Below are positions 7,967-40,383 of a stretch of 64,000 nt of DNA, piece by piece; position 1 is the first letter of the stretch, and the number at the start of each line of letters is the position of its first letter. The DNA lies in contig JBANDB010000006.1 of assembly GCA_037576215.1 (NCBI GenBank), forward strand, positions 4,712,001 through 4,776,000. Direction: 5' to 3'. This DNA is from Armillaria gallica (taxonomy: Eukaryota; Basidiomycota; Agaricomycetes; Agaricales; Physalacriaceae). The position numbers were made by a program, and so were the translations under genes. The notes beneath the pieces were generated by a model, which had not been told where the DNA came from, did no database searches, and worked only from the letters and a program-made list of their open reading frames with translations.

Positions 7967-9743
7967 ATGTCGCAAACCGTCGAATACCGCCTTTCCGTAA
8001 CACCCGAGCCGTACGAGTCGGCCCCGACCCCTGAGGATATTTCAATCGATGAGATCGAAGCTCGGGCCACCGCGGAAGAGAATTATGCGGAGGCCGTGGC
8101 CAAGCATGCTGCCTGGAAGGAGGCCAAGGCGGCGGCGGAGCGGGAAGAAAAATTGAGGTTGGCTTGAGAGGCGCGGGCTGCGAAGGTTGAGGCTTTAAGG
8201 CAGAAAGCCGAGGAGAAAAGGAAGGTGGAGGAGCAAAGACAGGAGGAGGAACGGCTTTGTTTGTTGAAGGAAAAACAGGAGGCCGAGGAAAAACAGAGGT
8301 TGGCGGAGTTGAAGGAAAAGGAGCTTGAGGAGGCCGCGGAGAAAAAGAGGAAGGATGACTTAAAAAAGGAGAAGAAAAAGGCTGCAAAGAGGTTGAGGGA
8401 AGAGCGAAAGGCGGAGAAGATCGTGGCATCCGGTAAAGGGAAAGGCGTTGAGGAGACCGCAGAGGCAGCGTTGATTGAAGAGAAGGGATCGGATGCGGAT
8501 ACCGAGGCGAATTTGTCGGAAAATTCAAGGGCAGCAGCCCTTCAAAAGTTGAAGGATATTCATGACGGGAAGCGGTGGGCGACAGGATCCGTGGTTTCTA
8601 CTGCGGACGGGAAAAAGAAGCGGAAACGACCTGCCAAGTCTGCGAGTGTGGTGGAGGAGAGCAGAGAAGAAGGAGGAGCAGGGCCTAGTAAAAAGGCAAA
8701 GGTGGACTCTACAGGTCCCGCGGCGAATGAGGAGGAGTTGGAGGGTAGCAGTAAGTGGTTTCCGGTGGTCTCCGCGGTATGCTAATTGGTTTGTAGGGCA
8801 CTGTATACGGTGTCGCCAGGACAGTGCGAGATGTTATGCTCGTCCTGGATCTGCAAAGACTGTCCGGGGCCGTACGTGCTCCCGCTGCAAGACCAAGAAG
8901 TCCGCGTGTTCCTTCAATAAGGGCACCTCTGCTTCCATCGCCGTTGGCTCCAACGAGATTTCGGAGGCTCTTCAAAAATTGACCAGCACTGTCAACGTTC
9001 TCGTAAACAAGGTGGATAAATTGACTGGGGAGGTCGCCTTCCTGCGGGGCCGCGTTGGAGACTTAGTCGACGATTACAAGGCGGAGTCTATTGAGTCTCC
9101 CGAGGATATCCTGTCGGCTTCTGACGTGGAGGAGTGGGATGCATCATGCATGGAGTTGAAAGATTTGGAGGGGGTGAATTCCGAGGCACTCTGGCGGGTG
9201 ATGCAATGGCAGTTGGATGAGGATATGGCGCAGCTGAGGGCGAAGGGGCCGGTGGAGCCCGAGAAGTTGAACGTGGATGATCCTTATGAGGTGGCTAACT
9301 GCGAGTTTTGGTATGGCCTCGGGGGTCCAGAGAAATTGGCGGAGATGAAGTTGAAACAGGACTTGTTCCAGGCCACAAGGAACGAGTTCTACAAGTTGGA
9401 AGGTTGCCGGTCCGAATGGCAGTTCTGGAAGGACTACCTTCAGAAGCACAACTGCGACGATTTCCTAGTGGAGGACTCGGATCCGGAGGAGAAGGTTCTG
9501 GATGGTAAGGTTCGGAAGTCGCAGAAGCCGTACGGGGAGGACTTGGGCATCCCAGCATTGGATGGCCTGTTCGTGTTGGATGGTGATCCTGCGGGGGCGA
9601 CTACAAGTGAGGGGAATGGAGATGAAAGTGGTGAGAGTGAGGAGGGATCGGAGTCCGCGGTGGGCGACGGAAATGCACCGGCCGGGGCTACTGAGGATGT
9701 GGAGATGGGAGAAGTCGCAGATGTGGGAGCCGTGGACGCCTAG
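7967..9743 (+). CDS. Antisense accessory gene of gypsy-1: coiled-coil protein with CX2CX6C-X14-CX2CX6C cluster
   Basis: Not a standard retroelement gene. Exon 1 is 7967-8750 and exon 2 is 8797-9743, joined by a 46-nt intron (GTAAGT donor, CTAAT branch, TTGTAG acceptor) that keeps the frame; 576 codons. Residues 1-60 are acidic; about 60-150 are a very charged Lys/Glu/Arg coiled coil; 205-250 are basic with KKKRKRP and KKAK nuclear-signal-like runs. Residues 264-299 hold six cysteines spaced C264-X2-C-X6-C-X14-C-X2-C-X6-C, a likely zinc-binding fold. A short heptad coiled coil (about 315-350) follows, then an acidic tail. Codon 67 is TGA (8165-8167) where CGA is likely, so this copy is broken at one point. 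It starts 160 bp from the 3' LTR and converges on pol. A host Zn-binding factor captured by the element is an alternative origin. Confidence 0.75.
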
Positions 9744-10062
9744 CTTTTTCCTCTTGTCGCCGTTCTTCTTGGACAAGTTCTTTTACACGTATTTTGTATG
9801 TTTTGTATTTCGCTTTTTTTTTTTTGTTTTGAATGCATCCGGGGCCCGCGGGGCCCCAATTCTTGTTGACTTGTGATAAAGTGCGAGGTGAGAAGGCTAT
9901 TTGCAATAGAAGGCAGGAAATGAATATGAAATACAGCGTACGGATTCCGCTGGAGGCCGGTCCCGTTTAGGAAATGAATTTGCAATAGGTTTTGTGGATT
10001 CTATTTGAAATGTAAATGGTCGGAGCCGATGGGGAGCGATAATGTTACAGGTGAGGGAGAAG
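9744..10062. other. Convergent 3' ends between the accessory gene and pol
   Basis: No coding signal. Holds a 13-bp T run (about 9817-9829) shortly after the accessory stop codon. The 3' regions of the plus-strand gene and the minus-strand pol face each other here, so overlapping transcripts are likely. Confidence 0.5.
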
Positions 10063-13000
10063 TTAAATGGTGGATTTTCGGATGGTGACTTTGGCTAATG
10101 GTCCTGGTTTGTCTGGATAACGGCGGTGGAAATCTTCAATGAAATCGTCGGCGGAGAACTCGGTGGCCGGTAACCAGGCAAATTCTTCGTCAGTACCTTC
10201 ATAGCCTAACCATTGGATCCTGTAGAGGAGAGGACACCGGAACCAGCGGTCAATCTTGGAGTCTAGGATTTGAGCTATTTCGTACTGCTCTTCACCATCG
10301 ACTTCCACTGGAGGCGGTGGAGGTTGAGTGCGATTAGGAATAGTGTTTTCTTCTACGGGTTCAAGTTGCGATACATGGAAGACAGGGTGAATGGCACGGA
10401 GGTCCGACGGAAGCTTGAGAGTGAAGGAATGGGAGCCTGGTTGAGCTATGATTTCGAATGGGCCAAGGAATTTCTCTGCGAATTTCGCGGTAGGACGAGT
10501 AGTCTTGATATGCTTGGAGCTAAGGAAGACCCTGTCACCTACTTTGAAGGGGGGAGCCGGATTCCTGCGCTTGTCCGCTTGGATCTTGTAGCGAGACTGC
10601 GCCTGAGTGATTTCATCGTGTAAGAATTGGTGTAGTTCATCTAGGTTGACTACGAAGTCGCGGGCCCAAGCGGAGGCAATATCACGTTCAGGATGAACAG
10701 TGATATTAGGATGATAACCCTTGTTGGCAAAGAATGGCGAGATTCCGGTGGAGGCGTTCGGAGCATTGTTGTATGCAAACTCTGCGATGGGTAGTAGTAA
10801 ATCCCAGTTGTCCTGTTGATAAGAACAATAAATGCGGATGTACTGTTCCAAGGTTTGGTTTGCACGTTCCGTTTGCCCGTCAGCCTCCGGATGATATCCG
10901 GAAGTGAAGTGAAGTTCCATGTCGAGGGCTTTGGCAAGGGCGCGCATGAATTGGGAGACAAATTCGGAGCCGCGGTCAGAGGTGATGTGGTTAGGGACGC
11001 CATGTTTAGAGAAAACGTGAATGACGAATAACCGGGCGAGTTCTTCGGAATTAATGGTATCGTGTGTAGGGATAAAGATGGCTTGCTTGCTTGCGCGGTC
11101 GATTACTACAAGGATAGCAGTGAATCCGTTGGAGTCCGGTAACTGTTCAATGAAATCCATTGAAATGGAATCCCACGGACATTCCAGAACCGGCAAAGGT
11201 TTCAGCAAACCATAAGGACGATGTCTAGGTGTCTTGTTGCGACCGCAAATCGTGCAAGATTTGACGTAGTGGCGAACATATTCACGCATCTGTGGCCAGG
11301 TATAGCTCCGTCGGACTAATTCCAAGGTCCGATTTTGGCCAAAATGACCTGCCAAGATGTGATCGTGATTATTCTGTAGGACACGGAGACGGAGATCCTC
11401 GGAATCCGGGACATAGATGCGATTATCAAGACGGAGGATGTCTGATTTGTCTACGGACCACCGAGAGGGAGAAGTGGGAGTAGAGGATTTGGCCTGACGG
11501 AAACCGTCAGAGGCCGCGGAGTCGGATGATTGTGCTTGCTTGATATCTAAATGGAGCTTGTCAATATCCATTATAGCACTAGCATGGAGGGTAGGGCCCT
11601 CAAGGAAGGTGGCACGGAGAGACACGGAGAGTTGTTCTTGAGTGAATACAGGACAGAAATTGTGAGGATTGACTGCTGCGTATTGACTATCCCCCTCTTT
11701 TGGATAGACGTCCCATCGTCTAGTGAGTGCGTCCGGTTTTCCTCTGAGTTTCCCCGGTCGGAAGCGGATTACTAGATTGAATTGGGATAGGTATTCAGAC
11801 CACCGGACTTGCCGTCAGGTGAGAATCTTGGTGGTTGAAAAATATTCAAGATTCTTGTGGTCTGTTACGACGTCGATCGGGTCCGCGGAGCCTTCAAGGT
11901 AGTGATGCCAGTATTTAAAGGCTTCAAAGATAGCTAGAAGCTCTTTATCATGGGTGTCGTAGTTAAGTTCGGCATTGTGGAGGCTCCGGGATAGGAAAGC
12001 GATAGGATGGATTTCGCCGTCATCAAGGTAAATAGAGAGGATAGCAGCAATGGCGTAGTCGGAGGCGTCAGTCTCCACAACTAACTGCCGGTCGGGGACC
12101 CAATGAGTGAGGATAGGAGCGTGAGTGAAGGCTTGCTTTAGTTCATTGAAAGCAGCCATGCACTTGTCATCGAATTTCCACGGAGTTCCTTTGCGTGTGA
12201 GGCGGGTTAGTGGAATAACGATGTCACTGTACTCGTGGATGAAGCGACGGTAGAAATTGGCGAAGCCAAGGAAGGATTGAATATCCTTAACTTTCCGCGG
12301 AACCGGCCAATCTAAAATGGCTTTGACTTTGTCTTCGGACATGCGGAGGCCCTCGGGTGAGAGAATGTAGCCTAGATATTCCACGGAGTCCCGGTGAAAC
12401 TTGCATTTAGATCCTTTGCAGTAGAGTCCGTTGGCTCTTAGTCTGCGCAGAACTTCGCGTACGTGTTCTCGGTGCTCCACAGGGTCGTTGGAATATATGA
12501 GGATGTTGTCAAGGTATACGACTATGGAAACGTCAAGCATGTCAGCGAAAATGTCATTCACGAAGCGTTGGAACGCCGCGGGAGCATTGGTGAGTCCAAA
12601 AGGCATGACACGCCATTCGAAGGAGCCGTAACGGGTCCGGAAGGCTGTTTTCCATTCATCACCTTCAGCTATGCATACGAGATGATAAGCATGTCAGAGA
12701 TCAAGTTTGGTATAGATGCGAGCGGAGCGCGCGGAGTCGAGGAGGTCGGAAATGAGTGGAAGGGGATAACGGTCTTTCTTGGATATCTTGTTTAAGCCAC
12801 GGAAATCGACACAAAGACGGAGTTCTCCGGTCTTTTTCTTGACAAAAAGCACAGGAGCTCCATGGGGAGAACATGAGGGTGTGATGAATCCACTACGGAG
12901 ATTATCGTCAATAAACTCACGTAAAGCTTTGAGCTCGGACTCCGAGAGGGAGTAAATTGGCCCAAGCGGAGGAGATGTTCCTTCCTCAATATTGATCTTG

Positions 13001-13911
13001 AGGTCGTACGGTCTATGCTCAGGGAGTTTCTCGGAAAGCGAGTCACTGAATACATCAGCAAAGTCGTGATATTCTGCTGGTACGTCTGTCATATCCGGCG
13101 GGGCCGCGGAACTGGCCATTCCGCTGATGCTAGGTGCAGAAGGTTGGAGGGTGTATTGTTGAGCTCCATCTTCAGCACATGCTCGAACAAAAGCGGCCGC
13201 GGAGATGATAGATATCTTGGGGGTAACCGATGCAGAAAAGGAAGGGATGGTAGGGTAGGAGTAGATGGGTTTGTATGGCGGTGGAGTCTGTCAGGATCTC
13301 GGAATTGGCTTGGGAGCCGGGTTGAAATTAGGAACAGGAGTTGGACGAGGAATGTCCGCACGGTTAGATACAGTTGCATCGGATGCCGCGGAAGCGCTTG
13401 CAGGGGAAGAAACACCTGGTGATGGTGAACGGAAAGTGATACTGTGCTTTACCCAGTCAATCAACGGATTGCAGCGGGAAAGCCAGTTGTATCCCAGAAC
13501 AATGTTACAGGATGAATCTAGACGAGTGACATAGAAGTCGATAGAGATGATGTCTCCGGAAGGGAAACGGACTGGAAGGGTAATGGATTGAGAGATGTGA
13601 GATCCGGCGGAGCCGTCAAGGAGCCGAAGTTGAACAGGAGGGATAGGTTTGGTCGGAAGGTTGTGATCCTCAACGTATTTGGAATCGACGAAACAATGGC
13701 TAGAACCAGAGTCAATCAAGGCGAGAAAACGAAGGATAGTAATGATTGGAGAGTCATCGGACTCCGTACCGGAGCCGACTTCAGAGGAGAGTGGTATAGT
13801 GAGTGAATGGTTGGAAAGAGCGGCGGCGTTGAGGGTGACAACCTCCGATGTGCAATTACAGTCAACGCAACCCTGATCTCGCATGGAGGATACAGGGCTG
13901 CCTTCTAGTTT
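10063..13911 (-). pseudogene. pol: Gypsy-1 pol: protease, RT, RNase H, integrase, chromodomain
   Basis: One continuous frame broken only by TGA codons at 13291-13293, 12694-12696 and 11815-11817, each at a position where the family has Arg (for example DL-HAY and T-RQVRW). Protease: [39 protein letters not shown], and catalytic box YLDN instead of YLDD. RNase H: VETDASDYA and DHKNLEYF. Integrase: HHCC finger (HDHILAGH to CTICGRNK), then the DDE core with SMDFIEQLP, TSDRGSEF and YHPEADGQTERANQTLE. Chromodomain near the end: YRIQWLGYEGTDEEFAWLP. The frame is -1 relative to gag and overlaps the gag stop (13905), consistent with -1 frameshifting. Chromodomains steer integration to heterochromatin in related elements. 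Confidence 0.92.
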
Positions 13912-15460
13912 TCCGACTCCGTCGGAGCCGGATCCTCAGAGGCAGGAGCGGGTTCTTCAACTTCCGCAGCACGGCCCTTAGCGGAGGCCGCGGTTTTGCG
14001 TTTGTTGCAGTCCTCGGTCTTGTGCTTGCTTCCACAGAACATACAGAGGTTGTTCTTTCGGCGGCGGTCCTTTTCTTCTTGGGTAAGACGGCCGTCTTTA
14101 CCTAGCTTATCAGCATAGGGCTTTGGGTTGGAAGCAGATCCCGAGGAGTTGGAATCGGAAAACTTCGGAGTCGATCCGGAAGCCGAGGAGCTGGCGTTGG
14201 AATTGGAACCCTTAGATTTAGGGTTGTTGGAATATGAACCGGAGGACTTGTTTTCCCGGTTTTTACGGGATATCTCGGTCCTCCGAGTCCAGTAGCGAGC
14301 GTCAAGTTCTTGGGCTAGGAAGCGCATGTCACGGAGATTGTTAGGCTTCCCGTGGTGAGCCATATCATCCTTGATGCGGGTGCAAAGTCCGCGGTAGAAA
14401 GCGTGGCGGAGGGAATTGTCGCCGTAACCAACTTGGGATGCGTATTGGTTGAACTGAACCATATACTTCATGATTCGGTCTCCGTCGCGCATCCGGAGAT
14501 GTTCTAGGGCATCCTCGGCATCTCCGATGGCATCGAAGGGGCCAAAATTGGTTCTGAGTTCGTCAAGGAAGGCGGCGTAAGAGTATTGCCATGCTGGCGG
14601 ATTCCGTGGATTTGGACGGAGGATGTCTGGTTCAAACCAGTCAAGAGCGGTGCCGGAAAGAAAGGAGATGGCATAGTTGACTTTACTGGCATCCGCTGCA
14701 AAAGCAGTGGGTCTGTCATTAAAGTTCAACTGAAGGGAGACAATGAAAGCCTTAAGCTTCCGCGGGTCGGAGCCGTCAAATGTATCAGGTTCTTTGACCT
14801 TTGTACAGATGTTGTTGGGTCGAGGATTGTTTAGCGAAGTGGAAACCCCGCGCAACAGGTTCATGAATTCTCATAAGAATTCTTGCTCGTTGGGAGTATT
14901 GTTGTCGGGCCCGCCCGGTCCTCCTGGTCCATTGGGACCTCCCGGACCTCCCGGACCGCCAGACCGCCAGGACCTCCTGGTCCATTGGGGCGGCCGGGGC
15001 CTCCGGGTCCGTTCGGGCTACCTGGTTGGGAATCGGATCCATCGTCACCCTGGTTGTGTCGGTTCAAAGGATGAGTGGGGGTATCGGTTTCGCCTCCAGA
15101 ATCATCGGATCCCGCGGCGTCCGTTTGTTCCCCGTTGGAGGTGGGTTGAGGTGCTGGAGTGTGTGGATCCGGATTCTCCTGGTATCCGTCGAATATCCCT
15201 GTCCTTCGGTGACGTAGAAGGTCATCGGGTGGCGGAGTACTGAAAGGGTTAGGAGAACTGTAGTTGTCGGATTGACGAGCGGTAAAATTGGAGTGGCTGT
15301 AGGTTTCCCTACGGGATGGTTGTCCACCGACGGAGGCCGATCTGAAAAGTTCCGGATTTTCCTTGGATGCAGATGCTGGTATGTCTTCCATGGAAAAGAT
15401 TGGTGTTTTTCGTTTCGGGCCTTCGCCTGTCTCTGGAGGGTAAGTGTATGTGGTTGTCAT
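13905..15460 (-). pseudogene. gag: Gypsy-1 gag (capsid and nucleocapsid)
   Basis: ATG at 15460 (MTTTYTYPPETGEG). The N-terminal part is disordered, followed by a Gly-Pro-rich repeat (about 14900-15000), a capsid-like gag domain (VKEPDTFDGSDPRKLKAFI to LRMRDGDRIMKYMVQFNQYA), a Ser/Asn-rich linker, and a zinc knuckle MFCGSKHKTEDC near the end. Two lesions: a frame change inside the GGP repeat and a TGA at 14871-14873 just before EFMNLLRG. The frame change may be repeat slippage. It ends at the TAG at 13905-13907. Confidence 0.88.
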
Positions 15461-15503
15461 GATTTAGAAAAAATTCGACTCAAGGGGTTGAGTTCGAATA
15501 TAC

Positions 15504-16028
15504 TGTTAGGGACGTGCCAAATAGACAAAGATAACTCGCACGAGCGGAGGTCCGCGGAGTGCGTGGGCTTTGGCGAAGCTATTAGCAACGTCACCCTTGA
15601 GCCGAAGCCCTAAGATTGGATTGCGGAACGGAGTCCGCGGAGAGCGAAGGTTTGGATAGAGAGTAAGGATAGTCCAACGGAGCGGAGGCCGCGGACTTGG
15701 AGAGCGATGGATTAGACTTGGAGTCAGAGAGAGATTTTGGCTAAACCAAGTTGATATTCGAACTGAGTATCTACAAGTAATTCTACAGTATATATATGAG
15801 TAGATAAATCTGAGTCGGAGTCCGATGGACTCCGGCGGAGGTCTGTTCGCTACCGGATTTGGGTTCTAGAATTAATATGTGAAATAGTAAAATGAAATAA
15901 TAAGTGAAATATCAAATGAAGCAGAGTAATGGTAAGCGGCCAGAAGCCGCGGAGTCCGATAATGAAGGATGGGTTAGAATTGAAGTTGGGCTTGGTGTGA
16001 AGCGGAGGCCGGCGGCATGCGCGTAACA
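15504..16028 (-). repeat. Gypsy-1 5' LTR
   Basis: 525 bp, TGTTAGGGACG to GCGTAACA. It retains CG at all five CpG positions that differ from the 3' LTR. Followed by the TSD GCGTG (16029-16033). Confidence 0.95.
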
Positions 16029-16033
16029 GCGTG

Positions 16034-19000: not shown

Positions 19001-19324
19001 TTTGAGAAGGAAAAGTTGGTACGTAATGTGGTGGTGGGATGGTTTGGTATGTATTAGAAGGATCGTTAAAAGGATTCATGTAAGGATTCAAAACTGAGGG
19101 ATAAAACATAAACTGAGAAGGGAAATTTTGACCATATGTGGGTGGATGGGGAAACTGAGGGGCGGACTGGGATGCATACATGGAACCAGGATGCATGTAC
19201 CCTTGATAAGCCTGGAAGCTTTGACTCGTCGCTGTGGCAGAATCACCGAAGGAGGTTGATGGACCTAATATCTGATGGAGACCGTCGACGAGATGGTTGA
19301 ATTGTTAGTTTGTTGTTCAGACAT
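16034..19324 (-). pseudogene. gag-pol: Copia gag, protease and integrase (N-terminal half of polyprotein)
   Basis: Translation probably began at the ATG at 19324 (MSEQQTNNSTISS). A Pro-rich N-terminus, a capsid-like domain (RVDWATWYHGVQNLLMSRAIF to REAFHLLRRCYGG), a zinc-knuckle-like CLYPTGHTTANCWHEGG, protease ALLDSGTTHHIIND, GAG-pre-integrase (WHCRTGHPS to CPSCIMGKHA), and integrase (ELLHIDMCGPM, YAHQQNGKAERFIQ) follow. Lesions: a frameshift soon after the start, one in the poly-Pro (G-run) tract near 18820, one at an A-run near 17275, and TGA at 18145-18147 and 16758-16760. The reading frame at 16034 continues at 7276 after gypsy-1 is removed. Confidence 0.85.
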
Positions 19325-22060: not shown

Positions 22061-22244
22061 TTTTGACTGGGCCACTCTTTATGTGGTAGGGAAAACTAGT
22101 CGTGTGCACAAAGAGAGATAGTGGACAGTAACCCCCAGCCTGTGAAACAGATGGAACAGAGTGGAAAGAATTATCGCACATGGTTGAATGAGAGGGTGGC
22201 AAAAGTCACATACTCTCACAAAGGAGCTTAACACAAGTGACAGG

Positions 22245-22416: not shown

Positions 22417-22540
22417 TATGCCCTCCTGGTCAACGAAGTTGGGCACTATGGTAGAGTAAGAAATAAAAAGAGTGTAACAATCTTTGAATGAAGAGTAGAA
22501 GTCAATAAAAGAATGTAAGAAGTAAAAGAACATCACGAGA

Positions 22541-27331: not shown

Positions 27332-27341
27332 ATTTGCAATG

Positions 27342-30300
27342 TCAAAGTAATGCTCCGTTTTGATGCTCTGGTACTTGAACTGAACCTTTGCCCCAGAAAA
27401 TCTTGGAGCGAGATCCTTGGACTGTGAGATGCAAGGGAATTGGGGTTGGAAGGTAAGTCTTGAATACCTTTAGTTGATCTGCTAATTGAGTAGACATGAA
27501 GTCTCCCAAGGAGCCGGTATCAACCAAGGCTTGGCATGGCTTTCCATTGATGTCGACAACAATAACAAGAGGTTGAGGTACCACACAGCCGATGTCCTTG
27601 ACAACTGAGGCATGTCACTGAATAGCTGGGTAAGTCTTGGGCTCGATTTGAACTCCTGCTATACTCATAACATGAGCATAGCCATTCCGTTCTTCCCAAT
27701 GCAGGTTGCCATCCATCAAGTGCAAGTAGCTATCTGCTGCCACAACCACAGAATCAAGTTCTTTCTCAAATGAGGTCATTTCTGTGGACTGCGAGAACAA
27801 GTGGGTAAGAAACTCATATTCAACAGGGCCTTGAAGTCATTGTAACAGAGTTTCGTAGGCTTGATTGAGCTTCTTCCAGTACCAACTCAGCAGGTCAAAG
27901 TTTGGATTAGTCAGATACTTGATAGGTACTGATGTTTTAAAGTCTCGGTAAGTATCTTCAGTGATATACTTGTGCGAGGACTTTCTCAGGTGAGGGTAAA
28001 TAATATAATGAATATCATCTTCCAGGTTCTTGGAGTCCTTGATAAACAGAACATGTTTTGTCAAGGATTCTCGAGCTGCGGTAGCAAGCAGATGCCCTAT
28101 CTGAGGGTAATCCATGTTCTGGAAGGCTGGTATGTGGTCGAACATGGCCAGCTGCCTTCCCCAGAACTCTCCAGGACTGAATTGTGGGTTCAATATCCAT
28201 GAGATAGGTAATTCTCCTCCTAAGCTGCAATCGTGGTCAATGAACTTAAGCATACAGTCTTTCTTAGACTCCCATACCATGAAGCGAAGGTGGCCATGAG
28301 GTTCAGTGTTATCTCCTGGGTACGGCTGGCTCCCATGAAGCTGAGCTTTGAGAGCTTTGACAAGTACGTTGCCCATCCTTTGAAGGCGCCATTGTTCCAA
28401 TCTAACCTTGATAGCTTCAGCGTGCTTTATCTTTTCAAAGCGAAGTTCATCAAGGAGGAACGACTCATAATGCATTGTGACAAATGCCTTCAAGTTCTTT
28501 GATAGCCATCCAATAGCATCAAAGTACAGGTTCTCAAGTCTCACCACGTCAATCTGAAGTACAGCAAGATTTGACTGATCTACAATAGTAAGCTTGTCTG
28601 ATTGAGCTTCTTGGCTCACACTGAACCAGTCATAGGGTGAGATATGGCTATCGGTGAAGCCTAATTCTTTCAAGTCTGGGTAGCAACTGATGCCATGACT
28701 CAAAATGAAGTGTAAGCCTTGCATGAGAGCATCTCCAATCTCTGAAGACTTGCTAAACCACTTTGCAGAGTCAAACGGCAGTGCAAGGAGTCTTGCACAT
28801 TGCTTCGCATACCAAGCACTAATACGAAACTTTGGATTTCACAGCAAGGATGCTGAAATGGTGAGTTCACCATGTCCTGACTCGGTATCTGCCACAGTAA
28901 AGGTATCCTCATTCAGATGGAACACACCAAACCAATGAGAGCTCACAGCTCCCCAATGGAGTTCATCTCCCAGGTAAGGAGCATCATGATTTAAGCTCAT
29001 CTCAGCAGCATACTGATAGAAGTCACCAATACTGGTAGGATGCCAGCACAGATCTACTTCTTGGCACAAAACAAAGTTTGAATACCCTGTTTCTGGATAC
29101 CTGAAAACTTCCTTAACATCATCAGCCCAGCAGTACAATGGCTCACCATTGCGATCCTTAGAGCAAGCATCTTCCTCAGACCACTGAAGACTGAAATTCT
29201 TAATTTCAGAAACTGATAAGGTTACATTACATGCTATGCTTCCGAAATCACTGATGAAGACTTCCAGATCATTTAATTCTGGTTCATGTGAAGCACCGGG
29301 GCTGGCAACTGAAGGTACAGCCTCATCTGTGGGCTCAGCAGGTGGGGCATAGAGTTCTTCCATCACTCTTAATTCCCACTCACTGTCTGATTCACAATCA
29401 GAACTTTCGGAGTCATCTGTTTCTGACACTGGTTCAAGGTCTGGGATATTTTCGTTGTCTGAATCCCGGGCTTGCGACTGACCATCATCCTCATCAGGGA
29501 TGAACATCATTCCAATGGAGATATGATCTGTTGATTCTGTAGTTTCAGCAAGCTCATGAAGATTTCCTTCTGCCAATTCATAGTGCATGCCATGCACTGA
29601 GAATCCTGGCGGTCTCTTTTTATTATTGGACTTGACTGTATTACCATGAGGGCAGTTCTGAGCCATATGCCTGACTTCCTCACAGTTAAAGCACTTGTTA
29701 GCAGCTACTAGTTCCACCTTTTTGCTTTCTGTCACTTTACTGCCAGAACCAGATGATGTAGAAGGCTTGCCGCCTCCTCCATTACACCCTCCATGAGGAT
29801 GCTTATTGCCTGAGCCTCCTTTGGATGACGATGAAGCCTGGTTATGACCTGCGGAATGTCCTGATGGGGTAGATCCACCATTTCAAGGCCCATTCTTGTG
29901 GTGAGAATAGCCCTTGCTGTTATTATTATTAGGCTTATTCTTCCTTGACAAGGTCCTGTTATTTCCGTTACCATTGCCATTGTTACCACCTTGAGAGGGC
30001 TTCTTTTCCTTGCTGTGAGGTGTAGCCTCAAGGTCAGCCATCTCAATTAGTTCAGCTTCTTCAACAATGCGACGCCAACTATGAACTTCTTTATTCAGTT
30101 TTGCCCGATGAAGTTCACGTTGCATCTCTTTTCAGAAACCATCCCAAAGCTTAATGACACGTTCACATTTACTAGTGACGCCAACAAGTCCATACAAGGT
30201 TTCAAGCTCATAAACATATTCTGAAACAGTACGATCATTCTGATAACACCTCTTGATTTTATCACGTTGCTGACTACAATAATTCAGAGGGAAACAAGCA

Positions 30301-32006
30301 TTGAACATCTCATGTAAGAAGTCCAATAGCATCCATTCTGCATGATTCTTAGAAACCTTTTGAATGAAGTATGAGAGGGCTTTACCCTTCAGGTAATGTG
30401 ACATCAAGAATACTTGTTCATCTCCAGGAACCTGACCTTCTTTACAGAACTGAGTCATTTCCATTGTGAAGCGGTGAAACTTCTTGCCATCAGCTGTTCC
30501 ATCATATGGAGTTGAAGGAATCAGTTTTATGATTCGCTTCTGCCCACGGTTATGCCTTCTATGACCATGGCCACGTCGACGACGAGATCCATGCCTCCGG
30601 TGGTGGTGACAATGGCCATGGCCATGGTGAAATGAGTCCAAAGAACCTGAATCTTCTGAGTCTGATGATGACAACAATGATGATGAGCTGCTACTAGAAC
30701 TCGAGGGACTGGAGTCATCATCTGAGGAATCACTGTCAGATGGTGAAGAGTATGAATAGTCAGAATCTGAGTCTGACTCATCACTAGAGAATGAATCAGA
30801 GCTCGAAGGCTCTGAATCAGAAGAGCTAGCATGCCGCTTCGCCTTCCGTTTATCACTCTTCTTCTTGTTGAGCTTCTGTTTCCGTTCTGGTGAGGCTTTC
30901 TTCTTTCCAGAATGTTTCTTCTTGGATTTACCCACTTGCAGAACGTTGGCCAAGAAGCTATCAGCTGGAAGCTGATCCATTGGACGAGTAGAGCCATGTC
31001 AGCTCTCATGATGACTGCTAGATGGTGCTCTGGACCTGCCCCGAATGACATCTGCCATCCGACGGTCAAATGCACTTGCCAGCAGCTCAAGATTGTGAAC
31101 ATTCTTCTTTTTTGAAGTCCTTTTCTTTGATTTCTTGGGCTTCTTCTGATGTTCTGCCGGTTCAGGGTCCTCAGGATCTTCATCGGAAGTTTGCTCAACC
31201 TCAAGACTGTCATAATGGCCAGTTTTACCAACCATTTTCTTAGCCTGTGAAGTCTTAGACTTGCTAGAAGCCTTGGTCCACTTTGAGGATTTTCCAACTG
31301 CCATGAATCCATCACTGTCAATCTCAGATCCAACCTGATCACCATCAAGGGATTCCTGGACCTCATCATGAACCTGGTTCCAATTCTTGAGCACCTCACA
31401 TTGAGCCTCAATATCCAATTCGGAGTCATCAACCTCCTGGTTACAGTTGACAAATTTTCCCTTTGCAATGTAGGAGCTCGGTCCTGGTGTTGCATTAGGA
31501 GTCTCCGGTCGGTTTTGAGTCTGCTCCTGAGTAATCTTGTCCTGATGTTTTGCCAGGATCTCACACTGCTCAGCAGTTAGATTACATTCTGCAGCTCTAA
31601 CCATAGAAGCTTGCTCCTTAGTAAGCTTCCTTACCTTCTGCTGTTCCTTGAAATGAACAGTAGGTTTACTCAGGTCATCTAAGCTCTGAGTATGATGGAG
31701 CCTCACAGGCCATGCCAGTTGAACATTAGTAGGTTCCTCTGCATCCATCTTACTGGATGCTTTCTCAGACTCCATACTAGAACTAGATGTATCAGAATCA
31801 ATTTCATCTTCTATATTACTATGAGACAAATTCTTCTTTGAAATATTCATAGCAGTCGGATTCCCTTGGGAACCAACATTTTCATCATCCTCCAAGTCAG
31901 AGGAAGACACCGCAGATGTGTCTGTCACCTCCTCCATCTGTACTCGAGTGGAGAGAGGGTTTCTCAGTGTGGCCTTGCCAGGCGCTGGAACACGGCTTGC
32001 AGCCGG
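27342..32006 (-). pseudogene. gag: Element D gag, zinc knuckle, long linker and protease
   Basis: One frame with TGA stops at 30999, 30132, 29883, 28839, 27837 and 27615 (first plus-strand base). Upstream part (31000-32000) is acidic/Lys-rich and disordered. Ser/Asp-rich and His-rich tracts follow, then a retrotransposon-gag capsid (MTQFCKEGQVPGDEQVFLMSHYLKG to RTVSEYVYELETLYG) and a zinc knuckle CFNCEEVRHMAQNC. A linker of about 580 codons (29600-27840) of unrecognised fold precedes protease (QALVDTGSLGDFMSTQLADQL). The N-terminus is lost to element X, so the apparent start inside the LTR is an artefact. Confidence 0.8.
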
Positions 32007-33717
32007 TGACGAGGCTGGTGACGGGCACCCATGAAACTGAGCATGGCCTAGCGTGAACACACACCAAACTCAACTCAACCCCACTAAACACACACACACA
32101 ATCTCCTTAAGTGTGGAGGGGAGCAAGGATTTTAATTCTTCTTGCGCGCTGACAGTATCCCAACTTCTTTCAGTGAGCTCGCTAGAACAATACATGCAAT
32201 AATGTAGTATTTTCAAGCTAGTCTCAATTTCTCTAGCTCTTCAGAGCTTTTTACAAGAGAGCACGGTGAACCACACAACCCTCGAGGCAAAATATATTTC
32301 AATAGCCAGAACACACGGACACGCAGATCCACAAATTGACCAAGTTTGGTCAGTGAGCTCACTAAGTATGACCCGCCGCTAGACCTAGTCTGCATGCAAC
32401 GCTGCCTTTCTCTTAGGGGCTAAACCTGACTTCCAAACTCATCATGATGGAGGCCCTCGGCACTCCCACTCAAGTCTTAATTACTTTCAGAACCGTCCCC
32501 ACAAGTCCTCACACACAGTGCGCTCACCCTAACAATGGTGCCACGAGGTCCAACTGCACACACCTGTCACACTTCATGTAACTGCTAGAACAGCTCAAGC
32601 TGGCTGATTCCCTTGCAACTACTTCTAGACCTACACAGAGGCCGACACAACACAAGTTCTCTTTTTACACTGAACCAGAAAAGGAACAGAGCTTTTCTCT
32701 CAGATTTATCTCAGCAAACTCTCAAGATGGGTGCAGCGTCACTGTCCTGAATCTCTTTCTTATCTCAAGTAAACCGAAGTTTTTATCCAAAATGTTTCTC
32801 TTGTTCTATTTCTCTGTGAGCTCGCTAGACTTGCATTCTAGCTGAGGCTCAAAGCTACTAACTCTTACACGTCGCAACAAGTCCAGATCCAAACTGAAAC
32901 TTTATTACTGTACATGGGGGGTAAGTATCTTGCTTTACTACATGAAATTCTACCTACTTATACTACGGGGAATTGATTATTACAAACGGTCTTTTAGTAA
33001 TTTACTTCCTTTGTCGGCCAATAATTCTTTGTCTGAACGGGCGCAACGCTCTTGGCAGAGTGCCGCTTGGGCCTCCTTTTAGTATCCTCAAAGGGCTAAG
33101 TGATGTTGATGTTGTTCGCCCTAGCAGCAGAGTAGCTCACTGACTTGTACTCAATGGCTGCTTAATCCTCGATCACTGATCACACCTCATATTTGGCTTT
33201 CGGTTCTGCTCTGAAGGTGACAGCTTCATATTCTAGACTCGGTAACCAAGGAATGCTTCGGATTTTGAGTCCGCTTGCTATTCCCATTGGCCAAAGTCTG
33301 TTTCTATGCCATGTCTGGGGTTCTTTTGATTACTCCGCACGTGATATCTTTTCTCCAGATCTCCAGGGACTACGTGTCATAGATTATTGACACGTAGTTA
33401 TCTAAATTAGTTCCAGCCTGCATACAAGCACATCCCACTGAAAGTTGAATTCTCTACTGCAGACAGAGGTTTTGTGCGAGTGAGCTCGCTCTTCAGCCCT
33501 ATTGTCATGCATGTCCATAAGGTACAGTGCAACGACGAAGTCCTTATGTTTTAATTCCGTTGCTTCTGTTTCTATCATAGAGCTCTCAACCTTAGTGACC
33601 TTGCTTCCTCGCGTGCCGTTTGCATTGTTAGTCTGCTCTCTGTGCTTCTGCTTTGCTAATGTGTAAGGTATGTGAATTTTGCAAAATTACATCCTTAGAC
33701 ATGCTGCAGGCATGACA
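32007..33717 (-). repeat. Family A LTR (recombinant: 3' LTR of X joined to the solo LTR)
   Basis: 1711 bp, TGACGAGG to GGCATGACA on the plus strand. The left end flanks element D. The right end flanks the integrase C-part with CTGC, the decayed partner of the CCAC at 46490-46493. Exactly the same length as the 40742-46489 copy without its insert. A 60-codon ORF (MQTRSSGGSYLVSSL..., 32395-32213) is shared by all three LTR A copies but is not convincing as a gene. Confidence 0.85.
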
Positions 33718-34455
33718 CTGCACTGGGATGTCTGTCAGGTGCTCTATAAAGCGTGCAGCGGGGTAGAAAACCAGTGGCATCACTACTTCATCCTCATAAT
33801 GTGGGCTGACTGAGTGACCGTACGAAAAAGGATGGGATGCTCTCCGTTCTTTGCAGTAACAGGGGCACATCCAGTCCTACCATTAGACGTACTAGAAGCA
33901 ACTTGGCTAGTGGAGTACCCTGGCAGAATCCTAGAAGGCTGGGAGCTCCGTGGACTAAGGGCCATAGCGCTACAGAAACATGCAGACCAAGTAGAAGAAA
34001 TGCGCCAGAACATGGATGCGGCGAAGAGAGAAAGAACATTGCAGTATGCCAAGATGAATGCTAACAAGATCAAAGAATTCAAGTTTAAGTGCAGCGATCT
34101 GGTCTTGATGGGAAACAGTCAGATTGAGAGCTCATTAAACATGAAAATGAAACCACGATACTTGGGGCCCCTGGTGGTCGTGCATCACACCAAGGCCGGC
34201 AATTACATCTTAGCCGAGATAGATGGAGCTATAATCCGTTCTAAGATAGCTGCGTTCAGGGTAGTACCATATCTAGCCCGAAAGTCCATAGATTTGGAAG
34301 GGCGGGTACTTGAACTCATGGATATGTCACACACGGAGTTACAGAAACTTATGGACTCCCCAGAGCCTAAAGATAAAGTACCAGATAACTTCACAGAGGA
34401 TTATCCAGAGACAGAGAACTGTAAGGTGTCAAAAGACATTAACTTAGACAATTAA
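33718..34455 (+). pseudogene. pol: Element X integrase, C-terminal part (inverted)
   Basis: Opens in frame as (L)HWDVCQVLYKACSG, the continuation of NGRIERP at 46490 on the other strand. Then WADxVTVRKRMGCSPFFAVTGAHPVLPLDVLEATWLVEYPGRIL, and an SH3-like C-terminal region (CSDLVLMGNSQIESSLNMKMKPRYLGPLVVVHHTKAGNYILAEIDGA). A TGA at 33811-33813 replaces the Arg of WADR. It ends at a TAA at 34453-34455. No chromodomain is visible. Confidence 0.85.
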
Positions 34456-34786
34456 ACTCAGAGAGCTCGCATCAAAGAAAGCACAAGACACCCTGAGGGC
34501 GGTGTATTATGGCATGTAAAGACAGTGCGAGGCCATTACTAACTAATGGCGGAGAGGGAAAACTAGCTAAACAGCATAAGATGAAAACTACTGGATGATG
34601 AGATAGGCCCTGGAGACTCCTGGAATGCTACTCCTAAAGTAAGCTAAGAGAGAATAACAGTAAGGAAGCAGATAGTCAACATCAGTAGCAGATAACTGGA
34701 AAGAGATGTGAGGAGATGAGGAAACTGAGTTACCATGACCATTACCAATGAGAGAACCGGAGATATCAATGATGAAGGGCTGGGGC
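34456..34786. other. Spacer between integrase and antisense gene 2
   Basis: No coding signal seen. The 3' ends of the plus-strand integrase and the minus-strand antisense gene converge here. Confidence 0.4.
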
Positions 34787-36269
34787 CTAGAAACACAAAG
34801 GCTCCAGGATAATTGGGGTCAGAGCAGAGGCACCGCACCTGGGATCTGCAGAAGCGGCACCATCAGGTGAGCCAGCTTCAGTACCGGAAGCAGATAGAGC
34901 CCCTTGGATTCCAGAGAGCTCGCTAAGAAGGAACATGCGCTGTCTCTCCGCAGCAAAAATGGTATGATGGAGCACAACGAGGTCGCCCAGGATGGCACTC
35001 TCGAGCCAGGCCAAGAACTCAGGTGACTTGATGCGAAGACCGTCCAGGGATGCCCCTTGTGGAGACGAGTGAAGCACCTCGCTAAGGGCAGCATTTCCGC
35101 TCTCCCTGGAAACTAAAAGGGGACAGTGAGAAAAGAGATAGACAAAAGAAAGAAAAGATGCACCGGTGCTGACCAGACCAAGAACAGAGGCTGCCCATCT
35201 ATCGGATCCGCCGCGAGGATGAGAAGAATAGAACTCACAGGCTGAAGAATACAGGAAGGCATGACGAGACCGCTTAGTGTCACGGTCGGCATCCTGGTAA
35301 TGGCGCTTAGTAGGAGAGGACTAGGAAACTGAGAGTTAGTGCGATAAGTTAGCAAGCACGCAAGAAGAAAGAACTTACAGCGCCAGCAGCGGGGCAATCT
35401 AGAAGAGAATGGTCATTTCCTCTGCAATGGAAACAGGCAGAGGGCTCGTCCTAAAGCAAGGAGCTTTTAGTGTGGGGGATATCTTGAGGAAAGACAAGAT
35501 ATCTCACCTTGGAAGACTCCTTACGTTTCTCGCCGGTGACAGCATCACCAGACTTGCTTTTAAAAGACTTGGTAACCTTGGGAGGAGCTGGTTTGGAGTT
35601 ATCGTTGTCAACAGACATCTTGAGGATACCGTCAGTTAGTGTGCGGAATAGAGACATTTGAGGAATCTAAGAGAGAGCGTACTTTAATGGACTCGGACTC
35701 AGAATCAGAACGGTTGGCTACCTTGTCAGGCTCCCCATCAGTGGATTTGGCACCAGAATCAACAATGGCAGGAGACCTCTTGAGGGCGTGAGCTTTGCCT
35801 TTGCTGCGAGTGACTGGAGTCTAGAAGAAACCAAATAAGTACGAAGAAGAAAGATAAAAGAAAGGGAAATACATCGCGACGAGGACCAGTAGGGGCAGAA
35901 GCAGGAGGACCTGACTCAATGATGTGCCGTTCAGACTGGACCCAGCCAGTAATGGTCTTCAAGACCTTGTGAATAGGCTGTTTCGAGGTGTTGGTATGAA
36001 ACTTCTTCTCGACGGTGCTGCGAGCCTTGAAAATGAACTCCTTGAACTCCTTGTCCTTGATGAGTTCGTCCTTGTGAGCCTCGAGATACTTCTGCAAAAA
36101 CAAAGTTAGTGACACTACAAAAGGTAGCAAGCCTGCTAAAAAGACACACCGTATACTTGTGGAGCTGAGCCATATTATCAGAAGCAGTAATGCTGAGGTT
36201 CTGGCAAAGCTGCGTGATAACGGTCTTGATGGCGACAAAGGGCATAATGGGAGTAGCAGAGGAAGACAT
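34787..36269 (-). CDS. Antisense gene 2 of element X: zinc-knuckle protein, 7 exons
   Basis: Proposed exons: 36269-36150, 36091-35873, 35820-35683, 35618-35508, 35450-35379, 35320-35164, 35112-34787. All introns are GT-AG (51-64 nt) and the sum is an open 380-codon frame. The start is MSSSATPIMPFVAIKTVITQL. Residues 1-115 are a mixed helical region ending HKVLKTITGWVQSERHIIE. The middle is Lys/Ser-rich and disordered. Residues 202-215 form a CX2CX4HX4C zinc knuckle (CFHCRGNDHSLLDC), a nucleic-acid-binding module common in retroelement nucleocapsids. The C-terminal 140 residues include a helical stretch LAWLESAILGDLVVLHHTIFAAERQRMFLLSEL. Function unknown; the knuckle suggests binding of element RNA or DNA. 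Exons 6-7 are the least certain. Confidence 0.65.
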
Positions 36270-37120
36270 GTTGGAAAGGGTTGTAGCAGAAAGTAGGCTA
36301 GAACGCAAGTACAATCAAGATATATGGTGGTGGAATATACCAGCAAGCTCACTCAGCTTTTATACCAGAAGTGCAGCAGCTACAGCTAAATAGGTATATT
36401 GAAACAAGACCATTCATAACCCAGAAGAAAATAAATTTCTGACAAGTACACACCCCAGATTTAGAAAATAACAAGGGATGCGACTAAGTCAGAAATTGAT
36501 TGAAAATCTAAGATAAATTTAGTGATGGGTGGTGTTGATGACTGGGGACAGTCAATTCTTTTTAGTGTGGGGGATATAGTAGGTATACGCAAGTATACCT
36601 TTATACCTTTTAACATTTAAAGTAGAAAATTAGGAAACAAATTTTCGATTCTACGAATACCACACAGAGGAGATTGATCAGGCCAGGTCAGGGTCGCTTA
36701 ACGATGACAGCAACTTAGAAAGAAATGACACCTGATGCTGAAAAATGAGAATAAAAATGGAGACAAGTGGCGGACAGACTGGTATGGAACAAAAGAAAAA
36801 GCATGCCAGGACCCCGCGAACTAAAGACAAGAAAAACTGGCTATAGAAAAGAGAAAAGAAGATGAACAGAGAAGGAGCTCACGACAGAAAGGGGACAACG
36901 TGTAGCCGATGCGGATCAGGGTTGCAGAAGGGGCACAAAGCTCTAGACTTGAGAACTGCGATAGGCTAAGACGTGATCACATGAAGAGAAAGCAAGAAAG
37001 ATAAATGATAATTGGAAGGGGCCCCGGGATACAGCAAGTCAAGAGAAAAACGAGATATAAAAAACTGACAAGAGGAGTCTGTGGGTGGAAAACTGCCAAG
37101 AAAGATGTATATACATGTAT
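36270..37120. other. Spacer between antisense genes 1 and 2, with a PPT-like 18-mer
   Basis: Non-coding; presumably the promoter of gene 2 and the 3' end of gene 1. TTTTAGTGTGGGGGATAT at 36560-36577 is identical to 35465-35482 (inside intron 4 of gene 2) and close to the real PPT at 40726-40741. Confidence 0.6.
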
Positions 37121-40100
37121 CTACTTGGAAGCGTCAGCTGCGCCCTCGCTGTCACCACCCTGAGTACCTGAAGGACCAGCTGCCGGCTCATCCTCACCCT
37201 CATCCCACATCGAAGCGTTGTTGTCAGAGGGCATGTACTCAGGACCTTCAGGGAGGTCGAGAGACAGGCCAAGAGAGTGCCGCAGACCATCATCAACGAT
37301 GAAGCTGCGAACTTCACGATAGATGCGAGACAGGTCATTGATGAGCTCGTTGCCACCCTCAGCGCTGGCGAACTGATCCAAGCTCTCAGCGATGTCGCAA
37401 ACAACACAATCGCAAGCACAAAGATGACCCTGGTAGAGGTAGTCAACATGCTCCAGCTCACGGTTGATACCGCAGAGCTGCACGATGTTATGACGAAGAG
37501 CTAGAAGAAGAGTTCAGTAAGCAAAGGCTAGGAAAGAAAACAGAAAGAGGAACATACCAGGGATGTTATACTGTGAGAACGTAGTAAGATGCGAGGTAAT
37601 ATCATGCATCTTGTGAGCGGTGTAACGAGCGGAACATCCTCCATGACGACCCTCCCAACATTGATCACAGTCAGCACCTGGGAACCAATTGGTCCAAGTA
37701 CAGTCGAGCTGACGATAAGCACACGGGAGGCAGGTCTTCTCATAATGCTAGAGAAGGGAATTAGACCTGAGAAAAATAAAAGAAATAGCGAGCTCACATC
37801 GGGAGCACGTGCGTAGTAAGCATAACAAGAAGAACAAGCACCAAATGTGCCGTTCTTGTTACCATAATGAACAGGGCTAGGAGAAAGTCAGTCAGAAAAA
37901 GAGAAGAGGAATAAAGAACTTACTCGAAGAACTCATTGGGTGCAGTGATTAAATCCTTGAAACGGTAGTCCTCTAGCTCGGCACGACTGTTATGCCTATT
38001 GATAGGAACGCCCTCTTGATCAGGATCTTGCATGTGGGTAAGTGTGGCAGCCAAGAAATGCTGCTTTGGGCAATCAGAAAACATCCAGTTGGAACCTTGA
38101 GGAGCGCTGGAGGCAGCAGACTTAGTAGTCTTGTGGGAAGCCTTTGTAGAAACCTTCTTGGGAGAAAACCAAGGCTTTTTGATGGAGGGACCAGCGACCC
38201 CGGAACCACCGGTGGCGCTAGGAATAGAGGCTGCTTTTGAGGCAGCGACACTAGAATGAGTCAATTTGGAAGGGCCAGGTTCAGAAGAAGCAACCACCTC
38301 GGGAGTGCGCTTCCTCTTCAGAGCTTTCTTCTTCTTCTGAGGTGGCTCCTCGTGAGCAGAAGAAGTAGTAACAACAGTGGGAGGAGAAGAGGTGTGAGCG
38401 GGCACAGGATCGGGGGCAGCGAGCTTACCCTTGCCTTTGCGCTTTGTCTTCTTCCCCTTCGGCTGAACTTCGACACCATCAGCAGGAGCAGAGGCCTCCG
38501 CGAGTTGGGAAACAGAGGGAGAAGCCTCAGACGAAGGCAAGCACACAACCAGAGAACCAGAACAGAGTGGAGTGCCAGTCACAGGGTGATAGACCCTGGG
38601 AGGCGACGGTGGCGCATCCACATCCATGAAGTCGGTAGGAGAAGGGACCTCCTTGATGAAGGCAGACATCCGGTCCTCCTCTGGAAGAGGAGGTGGCAGA
38701 GTCGTGAGCGTGGGAGGCTCCTCGTCTATGGGCAACAAGGGTCGAACACCAGCAAAGTCACCTTGTCCTGAAACGGGAGGCAAGGGTGGCGCTTGGCGGC
38801 ATTGCAAGAGAGGATTTGGTCGCCGATGCATGGAATGCAAGGAAGATCCGGGCATGTCGAACTAGAAATACGCGACATTAGAAAAGAGGAAAAGAGGAAA
38901 AACTAGAAGGAGCTCACGACATCCAAAGGGTGTGCAGTAGTACCCGAGGATAAGGGCTGAGAAAGAAAAGAGTCAGCTAAAAAGAGATGGCTGAGAAGGG
39001 CAACTTACATCAAGGGGCGTAACCCTAGAGTGAGGAGCTAGGAAGGAACAGAGACCAGGAGTTAGCAAGCTCGCTAATTCTAGCAGAGAAGGATCACTAA
39101 CTCGTAATATCACCTGCCGGTGCGGTAGAATCGGCAGAGCTAAATAAGAAACAAGTTAGGCAAAAGCAGAAAGAAAACAATGCGATGACTCACCCTGAAG
39201 TATGAAGCCCTACACCAGAACCAGGCATGAGCAGAGCTTGGCGCAAGTCCTGGATGGAACTGGCCATGTCTTGAAGGCCACGACCAAGGGAGGTACTCTG
39301 AGCAGCCATAGTGGCACATTGGGAAGGTGTAGCGGAAGCAGTACTCATTGGACGGCAGTATAACCCCAGAGGCTTGATGGGGATGAATGAATTCCATAAT
39401 GGAGGGGCCCGACAATTGGCGAGCAGGCTTGGCAGCGAAACGGGAGAAGACAAGATGCACCCCAGAGCATGGACACGAGGATAATTGCAGGGAATAGGGG
39501 AAATTTCAGGCAAATTAACAACTGGAGGCACCAAGGAAACTGGAGTCCTTTGAGGGTGCATGCTTCGAGGAGGAAGTGGCGGAGCAGGAGTAGTCGAGGA
39601 GGAGGCCTGAGGACACGCAGGAGTAGAGGGAGACTCCTTCCTGGGGCTTTCAAAGACGATGACCTCCTCGTCCTCCGCAGCGCCAGGGAGCGGAGTAGGA
39701 AACTGGTCGAAAACGTAGCCAGGGAAATCCTCGTTGTTAGTAACTAGACCTGGCCAAAGTGTAGTACCCTCGGAGATGGCACACTGCAGGAGATAAGACT
39801 CCATGGGAATTGCAGGGTCATCCATGTTGAAACCATCCTCCCCAGGGAAGGACATGTTGGGGGACAGATGGGTCAACACCTGTGCAGACAGAGGGAAGAA
39901 GTCAGAAAAGAATGAAGAAGGAAAAATTAGGGAGCTCACATGAGAAGGGCGCACCTCAGGCATCATACAAGCGATAGTGCGATGCCAGTCGTCGATCCTC
40001 AACTGGCAGGGCAAAGCGTCATGGACACATGGCACCCAGTTGTGGATAGATGCGCCGACGTGAGAGTCAATCAGGGTCTCATGCTCAAGAGCAGCAACAC

Positions 40101-40383
40101 AGGGTGCCTGGGCAAGAACTGTGAATTAGCTAGCTGTGGAAAAGAAAAGAAACAGAGAAATACACACTAAGTGCTTATAAACCTGCCTCAACAAGCCGGC
40201 AACTTCTTCATTGGAGTACTCATTCTGGTTGTGCCAATAAGGCACGAGGAGGTCCATGACAGCGCGGTAGGGGCAGTAGTAGACAACGGGGTCAAACTGC
40301 ACAAAGTACTCGTACTTTGGCATTTCATTGTCCTCGGGTATGGGGGTCAACGTTTTAATAGGCGGCACAAGTGGCGACGACAT
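37121..40383 (-). CDS. Antisense gene 1 of element X: Cys-cluster protein, 10 exons, 916 aa
   Basis: Proposed exons: 40383-40168, 40107-39940, 39879-39194, 39139-39114, 39037-39009, 38956-38918, 38861-37924, 37876-37798, 37747-37558, 37500-37121. All junctions are GT-AG and every phase fits, giving one open frame of 916 codons. The N-terminal 130 residues (MSSPLVPPIKTLTPIPED; WHRTIACMMPEVRPSH) look folded. Long Pro/Ser-rich disordered regions follow, with basic runs (KGKKTKRKGKGK, KKKKALKRKR) like nuclear signals. Residues 715-765 carry CX2C, then C733-X2-C-X6-C743-X10-C754-X2-C-X7-C765, likely zinc-binding and spaced like the cluster in the gypsy-1 antisense protein. A conserved-looking helical segment (NIVQLCGINRELEHVDYLYQ) and an acidic tail end it. 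The start lies about 360 bp from LTR A. It may be a captured host gene. Confidence 0.7.

Follow-up and report, generated by a model that had tools for sequence, protein, structure and literature searches.

Accessory genes that run antisense to gag-pol are already known from retroelements with long terminal repeats (LTRs). In plant gypsy elements, the antisense open reading frames (ORFs) classed as aORF-3R include gene23 of Grande, that of RIRE2 and TRP28 of Retand, and the sources describe the gene23 protein as nuclear, with the gene having its own promoter, and TRP28 as a predicted DNA binder (PMC7264820; PMC11963269). The function of these plant genes is not established according to the same source, which proposes a regulatory role and calls for a search for antisense and spliced transcripts (PMC7264820). 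In a fungal gypsy element, Boty/BcGypsy1 of Botrytis, the gene brtn is likewise described as an additional antisense gene (PMC7264820; PMC8365987), and HBZ of the retrovirus HTLV-1 is described as an antisense protein whose expression is driven by a 3' LTR promoter (PMC10186651). Here we analysed a 64,000-nucleotide stretch of Armillaria gallica DNA (contig JBANDB010000006.1, positions 4,712,001 to 4,776,000; the whole stretch is called the window below), in which two gypsy elements, Gypsy-1 and X, each carry a spliced gene antisense to pol that encodes a protein with a cluster of six cysteines.

Both genes lie antisense to gag-pol, between pol and the 3' LTR, occur in many copies and have a conserved protein, as in the aORF-3R class. 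Introns and zinc clusters are not described for that class in the parts of the literature available to us, and the main text of PMC11963269 contains neither 'intron' nor 'zinc', whereas the Armillaria genes contain introns, code for six-cysteine clusters and appear to be exchanged as a cassette. Among the matches listed in searches of open-licence literature, judged mostly from titles and abstract openings, no description was recognised of a basidiomycete gypsy element with an antisense gene that is spliced and encodes a cysteine cluster. Antisense accessory genes as such are known, and what is new is their spliced, cysteine-cluster form in two lineages, apparently as swap cassettes. On balance, we lean towards reading each gene as an element-carried, spliced antisense gene for a nuclear zinc-cluster regulator that would act on its own element.

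Structure and Copy Number of the Antisense Genes

Gypsy-1 spans positions 7282-16028 and has the predicted 5-bp target site duplication (TSD), GCGTG, on both sides (at 7277-7281 and after 16028). Its antisense gene has two exons on the forward strand, opposite pol and beside the 3' LTR, and the start codon lies 160 bp inward from that LTR. The gene of X starts 358 bp from the 3' LTR and consists of ten exons separated by nine GT-AG introns, open throughout, which encode 916 amino acids (920 with the other splice choice at intron 4). An Armillaria gallica homolog of the X protein that was predicted independently by others is likewise 916 amino acids long, and the homologs comprise 32 Armillaria proteins, the best with 65% identity over the whole query. 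The original prediction, made from the letters of the window, had placed the two genes at 7967-9743 and 40383-37121, antisense to pol, 160-360 bp from the 3' LTR and with at least one intron each, and these coordinates are correct to the base. It had also called the LTRs of the two elements unrelated, and they have one 13-base word in common and nothing more; the integrase stretches are remotely similar (22%, E 1e-4). The chromodomain claimed for Gypsy-1 is at most suggested, its score (17.0 bits) falling below the cut-off (25.1), and the 4-bp TSD claimed for X is without confirmation because the 5' LTR of X was not found in the window, where the inverted LTR at 32149-33717 seems to belong to another element.

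Searches of the organism's own genome (86 Mb, 28 contigs) with exon 2 of the Gypsy-1 gene gave 78 match places, or 62 groups after places within 5 kb were joined. An integrase lies downstream on the opposite strand in 27 of the 30 readable Gypsy-1-type loci and on the same strand in none of the 30, with an LTR upstream in 26/30 and exon 1 present in 26/30; among the three loci that lack integrase, L033 seems to form a single copy together with L034, which carries it. The C-terminal exon of X was found at 11 places and another X exon at 19, many of them partial. When the context of the X copies was read in stretches of up to 10 kb, the integrase tail lay opposite the gene in 7/11 (window copy included) and an LTR was present in 6/11 (two in part). 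The recurrence of such an accessory gene in two gypsy lineages, as had been proposed, is borne out by these contexts, and the outcome that would have spoken against it, hits confined to single-copy host genes, did not turn up: the genes are multi-copy and sit beside integrase and LTR. Wherever the homolog searches named an organism, it was Armillaria.

Splice signals of the Gypsy-1 type are kept, as read by eye, in 27/30 contexts (L037 is less clear), and three aligned X introns are visibly kept in most X copies, intron length varying more than exon length. This survival of introns in genomic copies agrees with the prediction and is as expected if sense RNA carries them.

Selection on the Antisense Reading Frames

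The median dN/dS of Gypsy-1 exon 2 in the frame of the gene is 0.19 (54 pairs from 11 copies, the sample being solely those with a long open exon 2). The other forward frames gave 1.23 and 1.33 and the reverse frames 1.20, 0.30 and 1.60, and no minus-strand frame is open across exon 2 in the window copy. With degraded copies included the value for the gene frame is 0.22 (259 pairs, 25 loci). In X, the cysteine exon has the lowest dN/dS of the pieces measured (0.12), two other exons have 0.19 and 0.32, and the C-terminal exon has 0.25. Because the gene frame stands at 0.19 while four of the five other frames are at 1.20 or above, the splice signals are intact and the X cysteine exon is so low, both antisense genes are under purifying selection, with constraint at the level of the protein. 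Two observations weigh against this conclusion. One reverse frame of Gypsy-1 exon 2 is also low (0.30), which we attribute to its wobble positions coinciding with those of the gene. There are also stops in the frames, namely a single in-frame stop in exon 1 of the window copy of Gypsy-1, in which the pol frame is interrupted as well, and stops in several X copies.

The Cysteine Clusters

A six-frame scan of the window for C-X2-C-X6-C-X5..16-C-X2-C-X6..8-C matched in exactly two places, the two antisense genes, and the same scan of 60 first-order Markov sequences of window length gave 0 matches. The cluster of the Gypsy-1 family reads C-X2-C-X6-C-X14-C-X2-C-X6-C, with an X8 loop in one subfamily, and that of the X family has an X10 loop and a final spacer of X7. 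The full motif is intact in 29/36 Gypsy-1-type homologs, in 18/21 X-type homologs that span the region and in 21/30 genomic loci; the cluster segments used for profile work were hand-picked for the motif, so the invariance of cysteines in them is no evidence of conservation. As far as the sequences tell, both clusters are of the spacing class of the binuclear Zn2Cys6 clusters. A loop of 14 is slightly above the usual Zn2Cys6 pattern, and loops of 8, 14 and 10 are within or near the usual range.

A Zn2Cys6 fold is likely for the Gypsy-1 cluster. The Zn_clus family (PF00172) was matched by 12 of 14 hand-picked Gypsy-1-type cluster segments (best E 0.0074, sub-threshold), yeast LEU3 aligned with the cluster with all six cysteines paired (E 0.62), and the name 'Zn(2)-C6 fungal-type' had been given by a source to 11 of 107 homologs among the matches listed. 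Like the Gal4-type factors of PF00172, the Gypsy-1 protein combines this cysteine spacing with coiled-coil-like heptads that follow the cluster, where Pfam scans gave weak matches to coiled-coil families.

Several observations weigh against such a fold. The Gypsy-1-family match shown in detail missed the Pfam gathering score (16.6 bits against 21) and had its best stretch where the later half of the cluster is aligned with the earlier half of the profile, and Pfam scans of both families gave no whole-protein match to Zn_clus at the cut-off. LEU3 was outranked by a cysteine-rich peptide that is unrelated (E 0.57), and profile searches of the PDB with the antisense proteins returned nothing significant. 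The basic residues of the Gypsy-1 cluster lie in its second half, whereas Gal4-type proteins carry theirs in the first, and the Armillaria proteins further differ from Gal4-type factors in being encoded by a retrotransposon. The X cluster had no Zn_clus match, its sole Pfam match being a weak one to C1, in 3/8. It is conceivable, although we think it unlikely, that the Gypsy-1 cluster adopts another zinc fold, for example a zinc ribbon, with Zn2Cys6 spacing by chance, and that the cluster of X has yet another fold, unrelated to either. The matches are sub-threshold throughout, one of them to a zinc-ribbon family, C1 is the best match for X and the two clusters do not match each other convincingly, all of which would suit such folds, but Zn_clus is the family matched by most of the cluster segments and the loop lengths are those expected of, or close to, Zn2Cys6 clusters, which argues for the latter.

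The two clusters had been described as of the same kind, and this stands for their spacing but not for homology. Alignment of the whole families with hhalign gave a probability of 0.8% (E 0.068), and that of the clusters alone 13% (E 0.0022, 17 columns); both alignments were out of register, with opposite halves of the two clusters paired (the second of one, the first of its counterpart), and were not accepted as proof of homology. Homology between the Gypsy-1 and X proteins is not convincing, though they may be remotely related, and the absence of alignable similarity beyond spacing, which the original prediction had named as evidence against itself, has largely turned up.

Turning to other families, HBZ is a bZIP protein and is spliced. 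Among the Armillaria proteins bZIP_1 was matched by 2 of 27 members (best E 0.055), which does not place them with HBZ-like factors. Transposase 28 had no match in the Pfam listings, the sole comparison made with the plant antisense proteins. The Botrytis gene brtn, said to go back to Zhao 2011, belongs to an ascomycete element and was compared with the Armillaria genes by description alone. As a separate observation, Zn_clus matches of near-equal score recur at a spacing of about 9-10 kb in parallel runs on contigs C2 and C5 of the organism's own genome, perhaps as a duplicated array.

Proposed Role of the Antisense Proteins

We infer that these genes are transcribed and that their products bind zinc and DNA, are located in the nucleus and act as regulators. 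Runs resembling nuclear localization signals (NLS), the cysteine cluster and, in the Gypsy-1 version, coiled-coil-like heptads and an acidic tail fit a regulator; the basic and acidic runs were spotted by eye. The nucleic-acid-binding regulator of the original prediction is thus in keeping with the make-up of the protein, the binding itself being the conjectural part. Transcription would probably start from a promoter within the 3' LTR or directly next to it on the inner side, giving an antisense RNA that is spliced and then translated into a nuclear protein, with the basic import signals taking it into the nucleus. The Gypsy-1 version, laid out like a fungal regulator that binds DNA as a dimer, would dimerise and bind element DNA, and the protein would most likely act in trans on its own LTR or on the region near the polypurine tract (PPT). 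The effect could be a tuning of sense transcription or resistance to silencing, from a position like that of HBZ in HTLV-1; HBZ is retroviral, and no sequence relation to the Armillaria proteins is claimed.

A candidate binding site or RNA hairpin is the palindrome that adjoins the PPT upstream of the Gypsy-1 antisense gene (Table 1), a degenerate form of which is also present in L036, a member of a diverged subfamily. It may alternatively have a role in reverse transcription. Over 24 copies, its pairing leaves 11 unpaired positions as antisense RNA against 33 as sense RNA, but the changes are transitions at a few positions.

It is rather improbable, in our estimate, that the protein serves as an aid to particle structure or replication, such as a nucleic-acid chaperone or a nuclear-import factor of the pre-integration complex, and not a regulator of transcription. 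Cysteine clusters occur in chaperones too, and the X cluster matched no DNA-binding Pfam family. A role of this kind is discussed for plant antisense ORFs (PMC7264820). Against it, a regulator would be the better match for a protein with coiled-coil-like heptads and an acidic tail. Furthermore, an antisense gene is not expressible from gag-pol RNA and requires a transcript of its own. That the antisense RNA is itself the working product, pairing with sense RNA to set silencing or copy number while the frame is incidental, is still harder to defend: noncoding roles of antisense transcripts are described in retroviruses and plant elements (PMC10186651; PMC7264820), but the contrast in dN/dS between the gene frame and four of the five others, the intact splice signals and the minimum of the X values in the cysteine exon all speak for a protein.

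Probable Exchange of the Antisense Gene Between Elements

The copies of the Gypsy-1 gene have a mosaic history. Between L009 and L012 identity is 90-94% in LTR windows and 96-98% in integrase, falls to 55-81% over a stretch of about 1.2 kb that begins shortly before the gene and then rises to 88-92%; between L009 and L022 it is 88-96% in the LTR and 91-97% in integrase, and nearly the whole gene lies at 59-81%. Across the 210 pairs formed by the 21 loci that have integrase, exon 2 and more than 300 bp of LTR, exon 2 dS exceeds LTR distance in 210/210 and integrase dS in 200/210 (19 saturated pairs were counted as larger), and the medians over the 191 unsaturated pairs are 1.19 for exon 2 dS, 0.12 for LTR distance and 0.36 for integrase dS. 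The subfamily L036-L038 differs from the window copy by an integrase dS of 0.33-0.38 and an exon 2 dS of 1.8-3.0. The order of divergence flips between pairs, L009-L010 having 0.34 in integrase and 0.20 in exon 2, and L009-L012 having 0.13 and 0.64, respectively.

A similar island is seen in X, where the gene of the window copy has 58-78% identity to L052, L053 and L055, and the stretch from about 400 bp past the stop through integrase has 81-94%. The contrast is smaller with the X LTR, which is 77-91% identical in L053 and L055, and the gene stretch is partly intron, yet the exon data concur, dS of one X exon exceeding that of integrase in 14/15 pairs. The island is absent from the pairs L009-L010, L019-L020 and window copy-L051 and weak in L053-L055, and pairs without it are consistent with an allele common to both copies.

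Trees were compared for the Gypsy-1 family alone, with 21 of the 25 loci (the degraded L024, L026, L031 and L032 were left out) and with 8 of 9 well-supported exon-2 groups and 5 of 6 well-supported integrase groups. The integrase data rejected five of the eight exon-2 groups (p-AU 0.036 to 4e-87; four at p 0.0102 or less and the fifth at p 0.036), did not reject two (p 0.22 and 0.09) and already contained one. Conversely, the exon-2 data rejected four of the five integrase groups (p 0.018 to 1e-157), the remaining one having p 0.097. One grouping of four copies with similar exon 2 sequences is rejected by integrase (p-AU 2.6e-27) but was set aside, because the exon-2 tree supports it at just 35/67.

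Because there is an island of divergence and the exon-2 tree conflicts with the integrase tree, the simplest account of the sequences is that the Gypsy-1 antisense gene has been exchanged by recombination between elements. A faster or less constrained rate of mutation in the antisense gene, which would produce an island without recombination, seems to us quite unlikely: divergence of the gene does correlate with both integrase divergence (Mantel 0.36, p 0.007) and LTR divergence (0.55, p 0.0005), codon or RNA constraint in pol could depress the synonymous distance there, and three of the eight exon-2 groups were either not rejected by integrase or already present, but the excess of exon 2 dS in nearly every pair, the reversal of order between L009-L010 and L009-L012 and the rejection of groups in both directions all argue against it. 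The same Mantel correlations indicate that the histories of gene and backbone are partly shared.

Recombination between elements thus remains our preferred explanation, and a diverged antisense gene between better-conserved flanks suggests a self-carried regulator that is swapped between elements. Either selection for diverse alleles or a divergence that itself blocks exchange inside the gene could account for the island. Pairwise recombination of members of one LTR family during bursts, giving mosaics, is described for Onsen of Arabidopsis (PMC5668417), and the Armillaria mosaic differs in that it isolates one accessory gene, in two lineages.

Other Features of the Window

The features of the two elements are collected in Table 1. 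The stretch of X with a second conserved antisense coding region has dN/dS of 0.20 and 0.38 in its two pieces and lies outside the divergence island of X. What seems to be another element with LTRs of the X family lies at 29732-33717 on the reverse strand and runs away from X head-to-head, with its 5' LTR at 33717-32149 and gag-like frames, recognised by eye, leading leftward; no 3' LTR of this element turned up inside the window. Next to Gypsy-1, a copia-like pol frame seen by eye at 5615-7281 on the reverse strand reaches the Gypsy-1 insertion at 7282, and a tandem array of 20-bp units with eleven repeat starts lies at 4683-4959.

Table 1. Features of the Gypsy-1 and X elements in the window (positions are those of the window)
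Feature	Position	Strand	Remarks
3' LTR of Gypsy-1	7282..7806	-	98.9% identity with 15504-16028
Palindrome AGCGCTCTTG-CCCT-CAAGAGCGCT adjoining the PPT, upstream of the Gypsy-1 antisense gene	7820..7843	.	degenerate form in 24/30 loci
Gypsy-1 antisense gene, exon 1: charged, with basic NLS-like runs	7967..8750	+	matched in 26/30 loci
Gypsy-1 antisense gene, intron, 46 nt, GTAAGT..TTGTAG	8751..8796	+	splice sites kept in 27/30 loci
Gypsy-1 antisense gene, exon 2: six-cysteine cluster, coiled-coil-like heptads, conserved domain, acidic tail	8797..9743	+	
Gypsy-1 pol: RT, RNase H, integrase, SH3_Tf2-1, weak chromodomain	10063..12693	-	family scan
5' LTR of Gypsy-1	15504..16028	-	LTR pair comparison
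X integrase, C-terminal tail	33814..34455	+	opposite the antisense gene in 7/11 copies
Second conserved antisense coding stretch of X, no function assigned	34787..36352	-	at least one of two pieces matched in 11/11 copies
X antisense gene, 40383 to 37121	exons 40383-40168, 40107-39940, 39879-39194, 39139-39114 (or 39102), 39037-39009, 38956-38918, 38861-37924, 37876-37798, 37747-37558, 37500-37121	-	open spliced model
X exon with six-cysteine cluster C-X2-C-X6-C-X10-C-X2-C-X7-C	37558..37747	-	dN/dS 0.12; full motif in 18/21 spanning homologs
3' LTR of X	40742..42310	+	TG..CA ends adjoining the polypurine tract; 97.5% identity with inverted copy 32149-33717

Implications for Gypsy Elements in Armillaria

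The Armillaria genes, which are multi-copy, clearly constrained and conserved in their introns, and whose alleles move between similar backbones, give evolutionary leverage on antisense genes of retrotransposons. If the protein binds its own control region, fungal gypsy elements would carry a regulator in the position that HBZ occupies in HTLV-1, and the mosaic copies are natural swaps with which to ask whether such regulators are specific to their own element. A more speculative and rather doubtful possibility is that the antisense gene with its cysteine cluster serves as a specificity cassette open to exchange, and that this came about in both of the unrelated gypsy lineages. Selection would maintain strongly diverged forms of a regulator acting in trans, and these would pass between elements with near-identical LTR and pol. 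The cassettes would then determine whether one element activates, represses or excludes another, much as the immunity region does in lambdoid phages, and, if true, this would amount to a system of compatibility or self-recognition among retrotransposons.

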